Part shown: in pieces, positions 301 to 10,927 of the stretch
Numbering within the stretch: the stretch's first letter is position 1
Layout of the letters: each line of letters begins with the position of its first letter
From: Planctomycetales bacterium
GTDB lineage: Bacteria > Planctomycetota > Planctomycetia > Pirellulales > UBA7805
Reading direction: 5' to 3'
NCBI GenBank assembly: GCA_011772275.1
Contig: WVZU01000003.1
Coordinates: 1-10,927, forward strand
Length of the DNA stretch: 10,927 bases
Program-made: the position numbers and the translations under genes
Notes under the pieces: model-generated
Database searches by the model: none
What the model saw: only the letters and a program-made list of their open reading frames with translations
Told to the model about the DNA's origin: nothing

Positions 301-2004
301 TTACTTCCAGGGGTTCGGTCCTTTGGATTCAGTGCCTGCCCCGTGGTCTTTGTTCGTGGTCTTTTTTGCGGCTGATTTTTTTGCGAGGACCGGCAATTGG
401 TAGCAGGCGGCTTCCAAGTGGTTACGGACCAAAAGGTAGGGCCCGGCCAGGGCGGGGTTGTTCCAGGTTTTGCCCTCCAGGGCCTGAAATTTCGCCAGTT
501 CCTCGTGTCGCTGGGGAGTTGCCCGGACCAGTACCAGTTCCCCCTGTTCAGAGGTAATCAACAGCAGACCACCGACCAGCAGCAGCTGGCCATGGCCGTA
601 GCGTCCCCGTTTCCATTTCCGCTTCAATCCCTCGATCTGCACACATTCCAGGATCCCGCCGCTCAGCCCGTAGAGGTGGTCCTGGTAAACAACCACGTTG
701 GTCATTTTGGTCTTCAGCGACTTGTGCGATCGCCACAGGAGGTGAGCGGTGAAGTTGTCGTGGTTGCTGGTGCGAATTTCAAACAGGGCACAACCCTGGA
801 GATAGCCCTTGGAGACAAATACGCGGTCGTCGCCGAGGGGAACGGGCTGGGACGTATTGGCATCCGCAGAACTATCGCCGGGCCAGGGAAAGCTCCACAG
901 CGGCCGGCCATCTTCGACATCGTGGCCGCGGACGTGATCTTCATTGACGGTGACCACCTGCCGTCGCCCGGCGAGTGTGGCGAGAACCGGAGACGCGTAA
1001 CTGGATTGATCGTTCCCGGCGCTCCATGTCGGCTGGCCGGTCCATTTGTTGTAGGCCACCAGCGATCTTCCGTTGGGTCCCCCGGCACTGACGACGACCT
1101 TGTCGTCAACGATCAAGGGGGACCCGCTGCGTCCCCATTGAATTTGCGTTGCAGAATTGTCGGTGAGGATGTCACGCGTCCAGATCGGTCGGCCGCTGGT
1201 CAGCTGCAGGCAATTCAACAGCCCCGTCGCCCCTTGCGTATACACTCGGTCGTCGTCGACCGTGGGCGTGGCGCGAGGTCCGATACCACCCAGCACTTCC
1301 TGGAAGCGCGTCTTATCCTGGTGCGACCAGACAATCCGACCGGTTTTCCGTTCATAACAGACCACCAGCTCGTCCGCCCCCCGCTGTTCCTGGGTTATCG
1401 CGTAGTCGCCGACGATTGAGAATGCGGACCAGCCGGCGCCGATTGGCTGCCGCCACAGCAGTCGTGGCGGGTTGTTTTTCCAGTCGGTGGCCAGCGCGAC
1501 GTTCTCCACCGTCGCTCGACCGTCGGCCCCCAGAAACCGTGGGTAGTCATGATCTCTGCCCACGTTCCCGCGGGTCGCTTCCATGGCGACCTCGGTTTCT
1601 GCCTGGGGCAGCCGCTGGTCAGGTCGGGGCATGAAGCGCCAGGCTAACTGAAACCGCATGTCCGCGGTGAAGTCCTCGAAGCGGATGCAAGCGACCAGTA
1701 TCACCAGGCCGACCAGAGGTACCAGCCACTTTGCGAGGCGGGGCAGCGACGAGCGGCTCCAGTACCAGCCGGCCAGTAGCAGGCCGGCCACGCCAAGCGT
1801 GATTGTGGAGACCACGTTTTTGTAGTCCTGGTCCAAGACGTCGGCAGTCTGCGTGGCACACCAGCTGAGCACCACGGTGGCCACCACGAGCACGACCGCG
1901 GTGAAGAGAATATCATTCCGCCAGGACCTGCCTGGTGTGGAGGAACGGGGAAGGGTGTCCCCAGATTGTGCCGACATGGTGCTGCGTTTGCTTGGGGTTG
2001 TCAT
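301..2004 (-). CDS. Membrane-anchored PQQ-like beta-propeller protein
   Basis: From the ATG at 2004 the protein has 567 residues. A short, basic N-terminus precedes three transmembrane helices at about 31-50, 64-82 and 91-108, which would place the rest of the protein outside the cytoplasmic membrane. From about 154 (YPRFLGADGRA) to about 540 it carries repeated propeller-blade motifs of the PQQ/BamB kind: TGRIVWSHQ at 221, SGRPIWTRD at 270, TGQPTWSAG at 322 and DGRPLWSFP at 365, each followed by a strand. A Lys-rich tail ends it. Proteins of this type, abundant in planctomycetes, act as scaffolds or as quinoprotein-like enzymes. No dehydrogenase active-site motif, haem-binding CxxCH or lipoprotein signal is visible, so PQQ binding and enzymatic activity are not supported. 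The start is uncertain: no clear ribosome binding site precedes 2004, and an ATG at 1977 (nine codons shorter) fits the predicted promoter better. A longer non-ATG start at 2106 would overlap the promoter and is unlikely. Confidence 0.87.
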   Translation of the reverse strand: MTTPSKRSTMSAQSGDTLPRSSTPGRSWRNDILFTAVVLVVATVVLSWCATQTADVLDQDYKNVVSTITLGVAGLLLAGWYWSRSSLPRLAKWLVPLVGLVILVACIRFEDFTADMRFQLAWRFMPRPDQRLPQAETEVAMEATRGNVGRDHDYPRFLGADGRATVENVALATDWKNNPPRLLWRQPIGAGWSAFSIVGDYAITQEQRGADELVVCYERKTGRIVWSHQDKTRFQEVLGGIGPRATPTVDDDRVYTQGATGLLNCLQLTSGRPIWTRDILTDNSATQIQWGRSGSPLIVDDKVVVSAGGPNGRSLVAYNKWTGQPTWSAGNDQSSYASPVLATLAGRRQVVTVNEDHVRGHDVEDGRPLWSFPWPGDSSADANTSQPVPLGDDRVFVSKGYLQGCALFEIRTSNHDNFTAHLLWRSHKSLKTKMTNVVVYQDHLYGLSGGILECVQIEGLKRKWKRGRYGHGQLLLVGGLLLITSEQGELVLVRATPQRHEELAKFQALEGKTWNNPALAGPYLLVRNHLEAACYQLPVLAKKSAAKKTTNKDHGAGTESKGPNPWK

Positions 2005-2019
2005 GGGAAGGCCGTTCGT

Positions 2020-2048
2020 ATCGTAAATTGCCCAGGTACGGCAGACAA
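2020..2048 (-). promoter_or_regulatory. Predicted sigma-70 promoter of the propeller gene
   Basis: On the minus strand TTGTCT (2043-2048) and TACGAT (2020-2025) each match 4 of 6 consensus bases and are exactly 17 bases apart. A start near 2013 would leave only about 9 bases before the ATG at 2004 but about 36 before the in-frame ATG at 1977. If the promoter is real, the later start gains weight. Confidence 0.3.
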
Positions 2049-2100
2049 GCCAAATCAAGTTGTTTTGCGTGGGCCGCGTGTCGCGCGAAAAATCGCCGCG

Positions 2101-2139
2101 AAACAAAACGGGGGATTGCCTCAGGGGCTTGTTCCCCCG
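2101..2139 (-). terminator. Predicted intrinsic terminator of the GGDEF transcript
   Basis: Reading the minus strand, CGGGGGA (2133-2139) pairs perfectly with TCCCCCG (2109-2115) across a 17-base loop that contains an inner GCC/GGC pairing. The stem is followed at once by TTTTGTTT (2101-2108). A GC-rich stem followed by a T-run fits a rho-independent terminator. It lies about 240 bases after the GGDEF stop and just before the predicted promoter of the propeller gene, separating the two units. Confidence 0.5.
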
Positions 2140-2375: not shown

Positions 2376-3488
2376 TTAGCCGGTGGGCTGCGTGGTGGGG
2401 GGCGGGGTCAGGTCTTGCTCCTGTAAGGCGGGCAGGGGGTCTGCCTCATCGGCCGCCGGCGGCTGGGAGCTGGCATTTTGTGCGGACGCTTCGGCCGGAT
2501 CAGGACCGTTGACTTCTGCTTCCCCTTCGGCCGGCGGAATCGCCGTCTTGGGGTGGGACAGTTCCAGGGCCTTGTTCACGGAAATCACGTTCCCCTCCCA
2601 GTAACAACATGCGGTGTTGCGGCCATTGGCCTTGGCCTGGTAGAGCGCGTTGTCGGCCCGTTTGAGGATTTGGGTGGCGGATCCTTCGCGCCAGGAACAG
2701 GCAACGCCGATGCTGAAGGTCACGGCCACCTCCTCGGCGCCCCGTCCCAGGTCGAATGTCTGCTCGCAAACATTGTTGCGTAACCGTTCTGCCGCTCGCA
2801 GGGCCGTGTCCGCATCCGCCTCGGTCAACATCAGTGCAAATTCATCTCCGCCATAGCGGGCCACGAAATCCTTGGTGCGGACACATTTCTTGAGAAACTC
2901 GCCAATGTGGGCAACCAGCACGTCGCCAGCCGCGTGCCCGTGCGTATCATTGACCCATTTAAAATGATCGACATCTGCCAGCAACAGGGCGAAGGGGGTG
3001 CCGCTGCGCCGGCAATGGGCCAGCATCGCCGTCAGGCGTTCGTCCATCGCTTTGCGATTGCCCACGCCGGACAACGCGTCGGTACGCGCCTCGCGCCGTG
3101 CTTCGTCGATGATTTCTGCCTGTTGTTCGACCTGGCACCGTGTGACCGTGAGATCGTCTTCCAGGCGCATATTGGATTCGAGCACGCTGCTGACCTGTTT
3201 CATGAGTCGATGCTGAATCACCTGCAAATCGCCCTCAAGATCCAAGCCGATCAGGTCTTCACCCACCTCTTTAATTTCCACATTGCGTTCGCTCACCTCG
3301 CTGGTAAGTTGCTCGGTGGCAGAAAGCAGCTCAGACAGCACGCGAAACGTCAAGTCACGTTCGGCGTCCATGCGGTCCTTGTCTTTGTCGGCGTACCGCG
3401 ACATCCCCAGGTAAAAGCCGATACCCAGGCCGACAGCGACGCTACCGATGACCCATGGCAGGATGGAAATCAATGTATTCACGGGCAT
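2376..3488 (-). CDS. Membrane-anchored GGDEF diguanylate cyclase
   Basis: The 370-residue protein should make the second messenger c-di-GMP from two GTP at the inner membrane. Visible parts: one transmembrane helix at about 5-28 directly after the start; a charged, helical, probably coiled-coil region at about 35-135 that would hold the dimer together; a GGDEF domain at about 136-295; and a Pro/Glu/Ala-rich, probably disordered tail at about 305-370. The active-site loop is canonical GGDEF (213-217), metal-binding Asp172 sits in ADVDHFKWVND, and an inhibitory site RTKD (204-207) lies exactly five residues before GGDEF. The enzyme therefore looks active and subject to feedback inhibition by its product. 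There is no PAS, GAF, HAMP or receiver domain, so the input signal is not evident; it may come through the helix or a partner protein. The ATG at 3488 has a GAGGA close upstream (short spacing). A terminator-like hairpin downstream separates it from the next gene. Confidence 0.95.
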   Translation of the reverse strand: MPVNTLISILPWVIGSVAVGLGIGFYLGMSRYADKDKDRMDAERDLTFRVLSELLSATEQLTSEVSERNVEIKEVGEDLIGLDLEGDLQVIQHRLMKQVSSVLESNMRLEDDLTVTRCQVEQQAEIIDEARREARTDALSGVGNRKAMDERLTAMLAHCRRSGTPFALLLADVDHFKWVNDTHGHAAGDVLVAHIGEFLKKCVRTKDFVARYGGDEFALMLTEADADTALRAAERLRNNVCEQTFDLGRGAEEVAVTFSIGVACSWREGSATQILKRADNALYQAKANGRNTACCYWEGNVISVNKALELSHPKTAIPPAEGEAEVNGPDPAEASAQNASSQPPAADEADPLPALQEQDLTPPPTTQPTG

Positions 3489-3723: not shown

Positions 3724-6375
<2,652 letters not shown>

Positions 6376-6382
6376 CAAATGT

Positions 6383-6674: not shown

Positions 6675-9600
6675 CTAAACCAGTGACAACCAGTCGACAT
6701 CGGTGCGAGTGTGCAGCCGAGCGGCGACCTGCAGCAGGTCGGGGCGGTCTCCGATCAGCGACCAGGCCAGGTCGGTGATTTCCAGCCCTTCGGCTTCGTA
6801 GCAGAACACGAGGTCGCCGTCGGTGTCGAAGACAAGATTCAGCGACTTTTTCAGATAGTGTTCCAGACTGGCGGCAATCGGTTCCCGTGCACTGCTCTCC
6901 GGCACGACGCTCAACAGACGTCGCGCACCACCGCACTTTGTCATGCGGGGTTGTGCTATTTGGACGCATGTCTGCAGGGGCGAGTGGGTCGCGTCTTTCG
7001 AGCTGGCGGTAACAGCCAACACAAGCTCGGCCACGTTCACCTCCCGAACCGCTCGGCGCAAGACCTGAGACGCGGTGGTGCGGAGGACGTCGGCCAGGTC
7101 GCTTTGCAGACCGGTGTTGGAAGCCAGCAAAACACGGAGGCCGCCGTTGTTGCCGAAGAGCCCCGTTTCCACATCGGCCGCGAATTCCGCCAGGCGGTGG
7201 GAAAGGGCGGTTTGCGAGGAAGAGCGGATGTATTGACGAAACGTCACGGCGTCACTGTGGGCAGAGGGGGGGGACAGCTGCGGCGCCGGGGGTGTTTTGA
7301 ATTTGCTGTTCAACGCGTCCAGTTCGCGCAGCAGTCCCTGCAGCTGTTCCGCCGCGGCGGCCACATGGATCTCGTCAATGCTGCGGAAGGTCTTGGCTAC
7401 GGCGCGCATCACCGTCTGGTTCAGTCGCAATTGGTAATAGCTGGACAGCAAGGGGTTGTCTGCCAGGTCTTTGGGGGCGTCCTGGGTGGCGGTAGCCAGC
7501 AGCCGGCCTCGGACGTGCAGCGCTTCTTCCGAGTGCGTCTTTACGAGATCGCTTGCCTGGCGAGCCATGTTTTGCAGATATTTCGCCAGCCAGGCGGTAG
7601 CGCGGCGGGCACCGCGGATGCGTCCACGCGAATTGTCTACCATTTCCCACAGCCATTCCCGCAACATGGAACCGCGCTGGTCTGCCACCTCCTTGAGGCG
7701 ATCGTTGATCACCGCCTGGAGAGGAAGAAAAGTCCCGTCGGGTGCGCCATCTGTCGCGTCGGTTCCCAGCATGCGATCGGTCAGATCCATCAAGTCCTGT
7801 ATGGCGGTCGCATCTTTGTGGGGTGTCTGCTGGCTGCGAAGCTTTGCCAATTCGCTGAAATAGTCTTTCGGATCGCAGCGCATCTCTTCCCCGGCCAGCG
7901 CCATGATCTCCTGCGACAACGGCTCGATATCCAGCTTCAATTTCTCGGCCTGCTCCTCTGCTAGCCGATCCACGGTGGTGTTGAAAGCGGATGATTTATC
8001 CGCCGCCGTTTTGCTGCCGGCTGTGACGTCGGAGAACTTGAGCGGCTGGCTGTCGGAGGCGGTTTGAGGCCCGCCGCGCCAGTCTTCCATCAGCCGGCTA
8101 CAGATGGCGTCCGCCAGTTCCGTGGGGACGTCACTGTTGGAGAGCCCCAGTTGGTAGAGGCCGAACGATCGGAGGGTGGTTTCCGGACACGGAACCGGAT
8201 GTTCTTGGTGTTCGTGTTGACGGGACTGGTCAAAAAACTCGCCAGCCCGCGTGACGGCGTTGCAAAACAGGTATTCTGCCACGCGGTCCAACTGGTCCCC
8301 CAACTCCGCCGCTTCCAGATCATCGCCCAGATGGACGAAATATCCGTGATGGAATGTCGATCCGTTGAAGCTTGCCAGTCCGAGGTTCGCGTCGCCGGGA
8401 TAATGTCCCGCCGGCTGGCTGTAATGTTTCAATTCTGTCAGACAGGCGAGGGTATTGGCGAGTGCCAGATCTTTTGCCGACGCTCGACGATCGGTGTGGT
8501 GCGTGAGGATACCGCAAACGCCGTCGTCGGGATGTCCGTATTCGGTAAGAATCTGGCGGACTGCGTAAGCGATGTCGAGGACCATGCCGCTGCCGCTGCC
8601 GCCGGCAATTGAGGTCACGATGAAGACGCGTGGGGCCGCCACGGCGAAGGGCGTGCCGCTGGCCTTGCTGGAGGCGTGGATCGCATCTTCCTCTGAAAGC
8701 ACGCCGATCAGCTCGCGGATCCGCTGCATCAGCTGTTCCCCATGGTCAATCATTACCAGCCGGCCGAGTGGCCGGAGCCCCTCTGTTTGTTGCGAGCGGG
8801 GAATGTTGTAGAGCCATCGTCGGCTGAGCCAGGAGAGGTATTTGTCCGATTCGCTGCGGTAGTCTTGGGTCCGCCGCAAGGGAAGAGCCAGCGTCTCGCG
8901 TGTCGCCAGGGCCGCCGTGTTGTTGTCGGTGCAGGCCAGGGTCAGTGCCGAGCGATCGGAGTCGATAGCCAGGATCTGGATGGCGGGGACTTCGTTCAGA
9001 TCTCCCAACCGATCGTGCAATCGACGGCGGAGCAGCCGCAAGATCTCGACGGCTGCTCCCCCCACGCCCAGAAAGAGGGTGGGACGGCAGGCGTGTTTGC
9101 CGGTCAACTCCAGCGGCGCCAAGTCGGCCATGTCCACATCGCGGTTCGGCAGCGGAGATTTCTCCAGGGTCTGGTTGGTGCGGTTGATCTCGTCCAGGGA
9201 GATCGTGCGGTTTGGTCCTGAGAAATTGGTCGAGCGTGAGCTCGCTTGGATGACCGTCGCCGCGGCCGCCATTTCGGGTTTCATCAACGTTTCGATGAAG
9301 GCGCGACAACCGGCGAACCGTTTGCCTGGATCCTTGGAAAGGGCTCGTGCCACGGCCACGCGGTCGGCCGGCGGCAGCGTCTCCAGTTTGGGTTGGCTGT
9401 GCATGTGTTGCGCGGCCAGTTGCGCGGCGGTGCGGCCGTCAAAGGGCACCGCGCCGGTCAGCATCTCCTGGTAAACGATGGCCAGGCTGTATTGATCGCT
9501 TTGCCGATCGGGGCGGCCGTCGAACACTTCAGGGGGTGCGTAGGTCGGGGTGAGCCCGCCCATCATCGAGACGTTGGTATTAACCAGTTCGCGGACCAGC

Positions 9601-10103
9601 CCGAAGTCAGCGACTTTCACGCGGTCGCCAACCAAAAGCAGATTTTCCGGTTTGACGTCCAGGTGCTGCAGGTGGTAGTCGTCGCGAATGTAGTCCAGGG
9701 CCTCGGCCGCATCCTTCAGATATTTCAGCAACCGTTCGCGCGGCACGCCCGACATGCCGGATTCCTGGCATTCGGTCAAGACTTCCTTGAGGTTGGTCTC
9801 TGCCAGTTCCGTGATGACGATCAGCCGCCCGTTGACCACCTCGATCCGTTCCAGCGAAAGCAGAAACGGATGGCGAACCTGCTTGATCCGGTTCAGCGCC
9901 TTCAATTCGCGGGCGGCCCGTTCGTCGTCCATGTGCCCGTAGACCAGTTTGGCTGCCTTGGTCAGGCCGCCGGGCGCTTCGACTTTCCAGACTTCGCCGT
10001 AGCCGCCGATGCCGATGCGTTCCACCAGCCGGTAGCCCGGTATCGGTTCCTCGGTCTGCAAGGCAGTGGGGGATGGCGACAAACTATCCAGTTCGTTGGT
10101 CAT
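6675..10103 (-). CDS. Ser/Thr protein kinase fused to tubulin/FtsZ-like domain
   Basis: This 1142-residue protein combines a Hanks-type Ser/Thr kinase with a tubulin-superfamily module. Kinase, about 22-275: glycine loop GIGGYGEV at 31-38, ATP-binding Lys52, helix-C Glu66, catalytic loop HLDVKPEN at 147-154 (Asp149, Lys151, Asn154), DFG at 166-168 and APPE at 189-192. All catalytic residues are present, so it should be active. Leu148 replaces the Arg of HRD, making it a non-RD kinase. A Ser/Thr/Asn-rich linker spans about 276-339. Tubulin-like part, from about 340: GVGGAA at 346-351, an FtsZ T2-like loop DSDRSAL at 381-387, and GGSGSGM at 501-507, matching the tubulin signature GGGTGSG with Ser for Thr. 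This resembles the Pfam Tubulin_2 type. About 650-1142 is mostly helical and charged with no recognised domain. No membrane segment is seen, so it is probably cytoplasmic. The ATG at 10103 was chosen because the kinase starts soon after it; the only upstream alternative is a TTG at 10175 without a ribosome binding site. Expected role (inference): a nucleotide-dependent filament or scaffold controlled by its own kinase. Confidence 0.9.
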   Translation of the reverse strand: MTNELDSLSPSPTALQTEEPIPGYRLVERIGIGGYGEVWKVEAPGGLTKAAKLVYGHMDDERAARELKALNRIKQVRHPFLLSLERIEVVNGRLIVITELAETNLKEVLTECQESGMSGVPRERLLKYLKDAAEALDYIRDDYHLQHLDVKPENLLLVGDRVKVADFGLVRELVNTNVSMMGGLTPTYAPPEVFDGRPDRQSDQYSLAIVYQEMLTGAVPFDGRTAAQLAAQHMHSQPKLETLPPADRVAVARALSKDPGKRFAGCRAFIETLMKPEMAAAATVIQASSRSTNFSGPNRTISLDEINRTNQTLEKSPLPNRDVDMADLAPLELTGKHACRPTLFLGVGGAAVEILRLLRRRLHDRLGDLNEVPAIQILAIDSDRSALTLACTDNNTAALATRETLALPLRRTQDYRSESDKYLSWLSRRWLYNIPRSQQTEGLRPLGRLVMIDHGEQLMQRIRELIGVLSEEDAIHASSKASGTPFAVAAPRVFIVTSIAGGSGSGMVLDIAYAVRQILTEYGHPDDGVCGILTHHTDRRASAKDLALANTLACLTELKHYSQPAGHYPGDANLGLASFNGSTFHHGYFVHLGDDLEAAELGDQLDRVAEYLFCNAVTRAGEFFDQSRQHEHQEHPVPCPETTLRSFGLYQLGLSNSDVPTELADAICSRLMEDWRGGPQTASDSQPLKFSDVTAGSKTAADKSSAFNTTVDRLAEEQAEKLKLDIEPLSQEIMALAGEEMRCDPKDYFSELAKLRSQQTPHKDATAIQDLMDLTDRMLGTDATDGAPDGTFLPLQAVINDRLKEVADQRGSMLREWLWEMVDNSRGRIRGARRATAWLAKYLQNMARQASDLVKTHSEEALHVRGRLLATATQDAPKDLADNPLLSSYYQLRLNQTVMRAVAKTFRSIDEIHVAAAAEQLQGLLRELDALNSKFKTPPAPQLSPPSAHSDAVTFRQYIRSSSQTALSHRLAEFAADVETGLFGNNGGLRVLLASNTGLQSDLADVLRTTASQVLRRAVREVNVAELVLAVTASSKDATHSPLQTCVQIAQPRMTKCGGARRLLSVVPESSAREPIAASLEHYLKKSLNLVFDTDGDLVFCYEAEGLEITDLAWSLIGDRPDLLQVAARLHTRTDVDWLSLV

Positions 10104-10217: not shown

Positions 10218-10927
10218 CTAGACGGATTTGCCGCCTTTACATAGGACGTCCGTGAAATATGTCTTCACGGCCCGGTCGAAATAGTCGTTCTTCATTTCCA
10301 GCGGTAGTCGCTGGTAACCGCAGTAGTTGCGGACCTGGTACAGCAGGTCGCGCGGGTGGCAACGGCGCAGCTGCCGGTTGGCCGCCCGGTAATGTTTTTC
10401 CAGGAGGTGCTCGACCACGTCCTGACGGTACTCGCAGCCGATTTGTTCGGCACAGCTTTGAAAGAGTCGCTTGAACTCTTCTTCGCTGGGGTCGTTGATT
10501 TCAATCTTGTAGGGGAGGCGTCGCAGAAAGGCTTCGTCGACCAGATCGGCTGGCTGCAGATTTGTCGAAAACAAGATCAATTGCTCGAAAGGCACCTGGA
10601 TTTTCTTGCCCGTCGGCAAGGTGAGGAAATCGTGGCGGTTTTCCAGGGGGACGATCCAACGGTTGAGGAGCTGGTCCGGGTCGATTCGCTGGCGGCCAAA
10701 GTCGTCGATCAGCATGCAACCGCAGTTGCTTTTCAATTGAAGGGGAGCTTCGTTGATATTGCCCCGTGGGTCGAAGCGAATTTCCAGGTTGTCCATCGTC
10801 AATTCGCCACCCACCACCACCGTCGGTCGCCGGATCTTGATCCAGCGGCGGTCGTATTCTTGTTTCTTCAGCAGTTCGCTTTTCCCAGTGGCTACCGGGA
10901 CGTGGTACGCCGCGTCGAACAGCTTGA
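10218..10927 (-). CDS. AAA+ ATPase, C-terminal part (5' end outside window)
   Basis: The reading frame stays open to the right edge; reading back from the TAG stop gives 235 residues, so the gene starts beyond the window. Visible (numbering from the first residue in the window): a Walker B strand MLIDDFG at 71-77, with DD rather than the usual DE; a sensor-1-like strand ILFSTNL at 117-123 (Asn122); and an arginine pair in AFLRRLPYK at about 132-140, the arginine-finger/sensor region. A helical lid domain follows. The stretch DRRWIKIRRPTVVVGGEL and the LLNRWIVPLE segment match, from memory, an AAA+ ATPase type common in planctomycetes. Walker A must lie upstream and cannot be checked. AAA+ proteins use ATP to remodel partner proteins. 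The neighbouring kinase-tubulin gene, 114 bases downstream in the same direction, is the obvious candidate partner, but this is inferred from position only. It is not clearly MoxR or any named AAA+ subfamily. Confidence 0.88.
   Translation of the reverse strand, partial: KLFDAAYHVPVATGKSELLKKQEYDRRWIKIRRPTVVVGGELTMDNLEIRFDPRGNINEAPLQLKSNCGCMLIDDFGRQRIDPDQLLNRWIVPLENRHDFLTLPTGKKIQVPFEQLILFSTNLQPADLVDEAFLRRLPYKIEINDPSEEEFKRLFQSCAEQIGCEYRQDVVEHLLEKHYRAANRQLRRCHPRDLLYQVRNYCGYQRLPLEMKNDYFDRAVKTYFTDVLCKGGKSV

Follow-up and report, generated by a model that had tools for sequence, protein, structure and literature searches.

A kinase-tubulin fusion protein of planctomycetes as the possible core of a phospho-signalling gene set

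What does a Ser/Thr kinase do when it is built into the same polypeptide as a tubulin-like protein? This question is raised by a stretch of 10,927 bases (the window) from a Planctomycetales bacterium, the first part of the 16,195-base contig WVZU01000003.1, which carries a kinase-tubulin fusion gene here termed KTUB. The fusion is already known: the main text of Makarova and Koonin (2010; PMC2875224) describes four planctomycete FtsZl1 proteins with an additional N-terminal kinase, and passages of a paper from 2023 on the origins of FtsZ and tubulin (PMC9871819) and of a 2024 paper on planctomycete kinases (PMC11032199) mention it as well, while experimental work on FtsZl1/Tubulin_2 was not found in our literature search. 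Apparently new, as far as the searches reach, are a set of partner genes, the reading of the tubulin-like fold as complete and bearing a modular arm, and a joint decay of EAL and GGDEF domains. We read KTUB as the core of a phospho-signalling machine, i.e., a phospho-switched tubulin-like scaffold that would be read by an FHA-EAL protein and remodelled by an AAA+ ATPase, and regard this reading as an even call.

Kinase and tubulin-like fold of KTUB

The gene and its parts are as follows.

6675..10103, minus strand: kinase-tubulin fusion gene (KTUB), 1142 residues, ATG start, without internal stop
9234..10058, minus strand: Hanks-type Ser/Thr kinase domain, by family hidden Markov model (HMM), residues about 16-290
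9642..9665, minus strand: kinase catalytic loop HLDVKPEN, non-RD, residues 147-154
9093..9233, minus strand: kinase-to-tubulin linker, differing in length among loci
8073..9092, minus strand: tubulin-like nucleotide-binding domain with the beginning of the C-terminal half, residues 338-677, S1 to H9 in the topology of the model
9051..9068, minus strand: T1-like loop GVGGAA, residues 346-351
8583..8603, minus strand: T4 tubulin signature GGSGSGM, residues 501-507
6930..8072, minus strand: all-helical arm between H9 and S8 of the tubulin fold, residues 678-1058
6678..6929, minus strand: end of the tubulin fold (S8-H10-S9-S10) and C-terminal RLHTRxDVxW motif, by model topology, residues 1059-1142

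An earlier note on this DNA, made from the letters alone, had claimed an intact Ser/Thr kinase and a tubulin-like domain in one polypeptide, and this is what the single open reading frame encodes, with Pfam matches to Pkinase (101.5 bits, residues 24-243) and to Tubulin_2 (FtsZl1, PF13809; residues 343-591), the latter at 129.7 bits far over the cut-off of 27. The residues and motifs named in the note, K52, D149, N154 and D166 of the kinase and GVGGAA (346-351), DSDRSAL (381-387) and GGSGSGM (501-507) of the tubulin-like part, are all found at these positions, and the structure prediction that it had proposed as a check gave a confident model with the whole tubulin/CetZ-like fold including the C-terminal domain. 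A KTUB match to PF00091, the family of canonical FtsZ and tubulin, was not listed at E ≤ 1.

Conservation of the kinase was counted over 91 distinct family domains, each represented by at least 220 residues. K52, the helix-C glutamate and, within the loop HLDxKPxN, D, K and N are invariant in all 91, and DFG is present in 90, the remaining one showing DYG. Since HLD stands in place of HRD throughout (91/91), which lies outside the definition of the RD class, the KTUB kinase is to be termed non-RD. The activation loop has a TPxYAxPE-type motif in the family alignment.

In the tubulin-like part, T1 (GxGG) and T4 (GG(T/S)G(S/G)G) are strongly conserved across the family, the former represented in the window by GVGG at residues 346-349. 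In the model, an all-helical arm of about 380 residues splits the C-terminal half of the tubulin fold, giving the extended helical region after the FtsZ-like domain that is a trait of FtsZl1. Among 11 relatives compared, the corresponding segment measures 14, about 150 or about 380 residues, and the three proteins that are thus practically without arm (14 residues) keep both flanks of the fold. The model indicates that the kinase-fused FtsZl1 branch of planctomycetes possesses a complete tubulin-like fold with a modular arm, which was out of reach of the sequence analysis of 2010. With the FtsZl1 branch of that study, KTUB shares the domain (129.7 bits) and the N-terminal kinase fusion; whereas the main text of 2010 gives the FtsZl1 C-terminal domain as without similarity to FtsZ/tubulin (PMC2875224), it is here recognised as tubulin-like, split by the arm and accompanied by a conserved set of FHA-EAL, AAA+ and GGDEF genes. 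To CetZ and tubulin KTUB is alike at the level of fold, with 8-15% identity in alignments, but differs by the large insertion, the N-terminal kinase and the missing PF00091 match. Two motifs, RRWLYNIP (residues 428-435; exact in 87/91) and the C-terminal RLHTRxDVxW, rank with the most strongly conserved ones in the family.

Spread of the fusion among planctomycetes

The family comprises 103 loci, of which 94 are distinct, nine having been dropped for a tubulin sequence identical to another locus. In 91 of the 94 (tubulin domain above 100 bits by the family HMM) the kinase lies in the same open frame; two of the others run off the end of their contig, and in the third, locus L039 of genome G012, the kinase is missing. 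Hence, the fusion is neither chance nor an assembly artefact. A search of a protein set (7999 candidates scored, 438 matches, 120 listed; 117 of these in one alignment and 77 in another) gave, among the matches listed, six members without a Pfam kinase, which begin within the linker or at the kinase end and look truncated, leaving G012/L039 as the only case. At locus L024 (7878-11418) the KTUB frame is split near the C-terminus, by assembly or by a real frameshift.

Forty related genomes, the window's own counted in, were surveyed (in some genomes at most 65 candidates were scored in the tubulin search and at most 49 in the FHA-EAL search). A dedicated profile search detected the tubulin domain in 18 of them, with two copies in one genome (G031); G035 (81% complete), which has a C-terminal fragment of the domain only, was scored negative. 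Within the window's own family, just one of ten genomes has the domain. FtsZ (PF00091) was found in none of the 40 genomes.

In a draw of 392 genomes from the phylum, PF13809 was matched in 22 (19 over the cut-off) and the tubulin domain was matched by sequence in 16. Ten of these 16 come from the same order or class, and each of them has the kinase fused; the remaining six are more distant, and no fused kinase is seen in the five that have upstream sequence (L086 and L088-L091), the sixth (L087) being cut. G231, a genome of the same class with a 127-bit Tubulin_2 match, shows no kinase match within the 4 kb examined, so not every planctomycete FtsZl1 carries the fusion. A scan of one genome per species, made with the single peptide RRWLYNIP, which divergent members escape, gave 77 loci, 73 of them titled as planctomycetes, three as 'bacterium' and one (L094) as 'Candidatus Nealsonbacteria'; the gene of L094 is of planctomycete type and its contig probably mis-binned. 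Named strains bearing the locus include Lacipirellula limnantheis, Botrimarina, Adhaeretor mobilis and Blastopirellula marina.

Partner genes and their c-di-GMP domains

Around KTUB, the window and the adjoining contig hold the following genes.

10218..10927, minus strand: partner AAA+ ATPase gene, 3' part, co-directional with KTUB and upstream of it; the gene extends on the contig to about 11551
contig 11768-13012, outside the window: FHA-EAL gene, divergent to the AAA+ gene and just beyond it
2376-3488, minus strand: GGDEF protein with intact GGDEF motif, 5.9 kb away
3724-6378: pyruvate phosphate dikinase gene, unrelated, between the GGDEF gene and KTUB
301-2106, minus strand: PQQ/BamB-like beta-propeller protein, N-terminal segments hydrophobic

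A run of N at contig 10928-10974, inside the AAA+ gene, sits exactly at the window end, and this gene is consequently incomplete in the assembly.

Gene sets were counted at the 60 fused loci whose sequence extends for 6.5 kb or more upstream, and 4.5 kb or more downstream, of the tubulin domain. All 60 have an FHA-EAL gene within 7 kb, 49 have an AAA+ neighbour and 34 a GGDEF protein, the window's own included. Pfam content was checked in a few copies (FHA-EAL, 4/4; a REC-GGDEF-CBS protein and a GGDEF protein of another type, one each), the rest being assigned by family HMMs; two full-length AAA+ partners fall below every Pfam cut-off. With F, A, G and KT for the FHA-EAL, AAA+, GGDEF and KTUB genes, the orders F<A>KT>, A>KT>F>, G>F>A>KT> and (A>)G<F>KT> were seen, i.e., linkage to KTUB outlasts rearrangement. 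The FHA-EAL gene also fits a reviewer comment of 2010, according to which a diguanylate phosphodiesterase gene adjoins the Pirellula staleyi fusion gene (PMC2875224). The words FHA, EAL and GGDEF are absent from the main text of that paper, whose gene contexts are in additional files; a description of the FHA-EAL/AAA+/GGDEF set was not found in the open-access literature, a search that did not extend to these files and is no proof of absence.

Across the 40 genomes, the FHA-EAL family (E ≤ 1e-50) occurs in 17; these are precisely the genomes in which the kinase is fused, and the other 23 gave no member. Extra copies away from KTUB exist in eight of the 17; eight such orphan regions were fetched, the gene was recognised in seven, and in three (L174, L175 and L176) it is close to another Ser/Thr kinase gene, encoded by open reading frames of 959-1565 residues. 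The KTUB-type AAA+ paralogue (at least 58% identity to the query) is present in exactly the 18 genomes with a tubulin domain and is doubled where KTUB is doubled. A second, less similar AAA+ paralogue occurs in 31 of the 40; in six regions fetched for it, the gene was recognised in five, without telling neighbours. In G012 the AAA+ gene is followed directly by the kinase-less tubulin gene, in whose vicinity neither an FHA-EAL nor a REC-GGDEF-CBS gene was found. In this genome (99% complete), scoring of 49 out of 89 candidates yielded no FHA-EAL at E ≤ 1e-50; with the FHA-EAL protein from a genome of the same family as query, all 53 candidates were scored and only four FHA-type matches were obtained. 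From this kinase-less case, FHA-EAL would seem to be associated with the kinase and AAA+ with the tubulin part.

The EAL domains were scored at nine catalytic positions, using the 81 distinct FHA-EAL sequences with a length of 300 residues or more. Their state is bimodal: 40 keep eight or nine positions and 41 keep none to five, with nothing in between. By comparison, the FHA pocket residues are kept in every row bar one gapped row. Beside FHA-EAL, a divergent gene of REC-GGDEF-CBS type was found at 38 loci, and at all 38 both the GGDEF motif and the EAL domain are degenerate; three further degenerate-EAL loci have no GGDEF neighbour in view. Where an intact EAL domain is accompanied by a GGDEF neighbour, the GGDEF motif is intact (6/6), the other 34 loci of this class being without such a neighbour in view. 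On the KTUB tree (88 rows, 78 labelled), six changes between these states were counted, of which the starred branches force only one, and independent co-loss of EAL and GGDEF is therefore not claimed. From the sequences, phospho-docking may be read as the constant part of the system and turnover of the cyclic nucleotide as the dispensable one.

A proposed phospho-switched scaffold and its alternatives

In the favoured reading, the tubulin-like domain would bind guanine nucleotide and form an assembly from which the helical arm projects, while the built-in kinase would phosphorylate threonines of the same or a neighbouring subunit. The FHA domain of FHA-EAL would then dock on a KTUB phosphothreonine, as is suggested by the near-invariant pocket residues and the exact co-occurrence, so that the scaffold would receive a c-di-GMP phosphodiesterase or, at roughly half the loci, an EAL domain that has degenerated. 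On the tubulin part, and not on the kinase, the dedicated AAA+ ATPase may act as a remodelling or disassembly factor, because it stays beside the one tubulin gene without kinase. We infer this whole sequence from conservation and co-occurrence; the outcome would be a regulated scaffold tied to c-di-GMP-related signalling in planctomycetes without FtsZ. Actinobacterial FHA-kinase pairs such as PknB/FhaA likewise combine a Ser/Thr kinase with an FHA protein that reads phosphothreonine; their kinase is a PASTA protein of the membrane, whereas that of KTUB is joined to a tubulin fold and the FHA domain of the partner to an EAL domain.

Several observations weigh against this reading. A conserved phosphothreonine motif was not found in the kinase-tubulin linker: the generic motif TxxD/E/I/L/V is not enriched (156 observed versus 156 expected in 77 linkers), and a motif chosen post hoc, [KR]T[LMIV][VQSI][LIFVM], enriched in the protein set (17 of 76), recurred in only one of 86 independent linkers, the window's own, and was rejected. 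At the apparent place of the catalytic acid of FtsZ T7, 115 of 118 sequences have Thr (model position 289, with position 286, three residues before, mostly D, N or S; both placed by sequence order and not superposition), which casts doubt on GTP hydrolysis and on polymers that are dynamic. Foldseek gave modest scores (TM-score by target 0.31-0.52, root-mean-square deviation 4.7-15). The AAA+ gene is not adjacent at 11 of the 60 loci, and mirror-tree comparisons of AAA+ were null, both with the tubulin domain (r of -0.01, 17 genomes) and, given the second paralogue, with FHA-EAL (0.04) and the kinase (-0.22; 16 genomes), the window genome's AAA+ being represented by one of its two pieces. KTUB need not be the only protein served by FHA-EAL, which may pair with several kinases, since several relatives have further copies, some of them next to other kinase genes. 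In 41 of 81 FHA-EAL proteins the EAL domain has lost at least four of nine catalytic positions, and at these loci the c-di-GMP link may be vestigial. Finally, ten of the 40 genomes are less than 90% complete or more than 5% contaminated, the kinase-less case is a single one, and the genomes are related, so co-occurrences are not independent.

The doubtful T7 position bears directly on a reading in which the tubulin domain neither polymerises nor hydrolyses GTP but serves as a static, nucleotide-sensing lever between kinase and arm. The apparent Thr and the large arm inserted in the C-terminal half would suit it, as would the main text of 2010, where T6-H7 was not identifiable in FtsZl1 and an absence of filaments was allowed for (PMC2875224). 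However, T1 and T4 are strongly conserved, and the three natural arm-less members keep both flanks of the fold, so that a lever cannot be general; we consider this sensor rather improbable. A kinase-regulated FtsZ-like polymer that would shape the membranes or the division site of FtsZ-free planctomycetes, close to what the earlier note had envisaged, draws on the complete fold, the failure to find FtsZ in any of the 40 relatives and the membrane remodelling proposed for FtsZl1 in the main text of 2010 (PMC2875224). It is nevertheless unlikely, given the patchy occurrence of the tubulin domain (18 of 40 relatives, one of ten in the own family) and the neighbourhood: among 11 neighbouring genes scanned besides KTUB, AAA+ and FHA-EAL, none for vWA, OmpA or a GTPase was found. 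According to the same 2010 text, an operon with a vWA gene is common but not defining for FtsZl1 (PMC2875224), and the non-fused planctomycete FtsZl1 at L090 has a vWA neighbour. A general division role of KTUB is unlikely because FtsZ was found in none of the 40 relatives and 22 of them lack a tubulin-domain match, too; the self-regulated filament or scaffold, possibly for membranes or division, suggested in the note is thus partly supported.

The same neighbourhood speaks against a conflict or defence module, in which kinase, tubulin and ATPase would act as a defence or programmed-death system like GTPase-tubulin-HSP70 or vWA-MoxR sets. Tubulin-family proteins do occur in conserved gene sets of GAP1-N2 GTPase systems, which in firmicutes and actinobacteria also contain GTPases as well as vWA and FNIII proteins (passages of Kaur et al. 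2020; PMC7159879), the distribution of KTUB is patchy, and its kinase domain matches the PADLOC models PD-T4-6 and mad6, themselves kinase models. However, the set of KTUB consists of kinase, FHA-EAL and AAA+, genes for TRAFAC GTPase, HSP70 or vWA were not found among the 11 neighbours and the partners scanned, and the partners form a fixed set with c-di-GMP domains instead of variable effectors, making a defence role very unlikely.

For the phospho-switched scaffold, a fixed partner set and a likely reader encoded next door give direct biochemical handles on what was an orphan protein, in named strains. We put forward only tentatively, as a possibility clearly weaker than the scaffold itself, that KTUB is a self-contained cytoskeletal switch under second-messenger control, with a built-in kinase, a reader bearing a c-di-GMP enzyme and an AAA+ remodeller, in which the chemistry has decayed at about half of the loci and phospho-docking is kept. 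If the assembly is dynamic, it would represent a tubulin system under the control of a kinase, c-di-GMP and an AAA+ ATPase in bacteria where FtsZ was not found.

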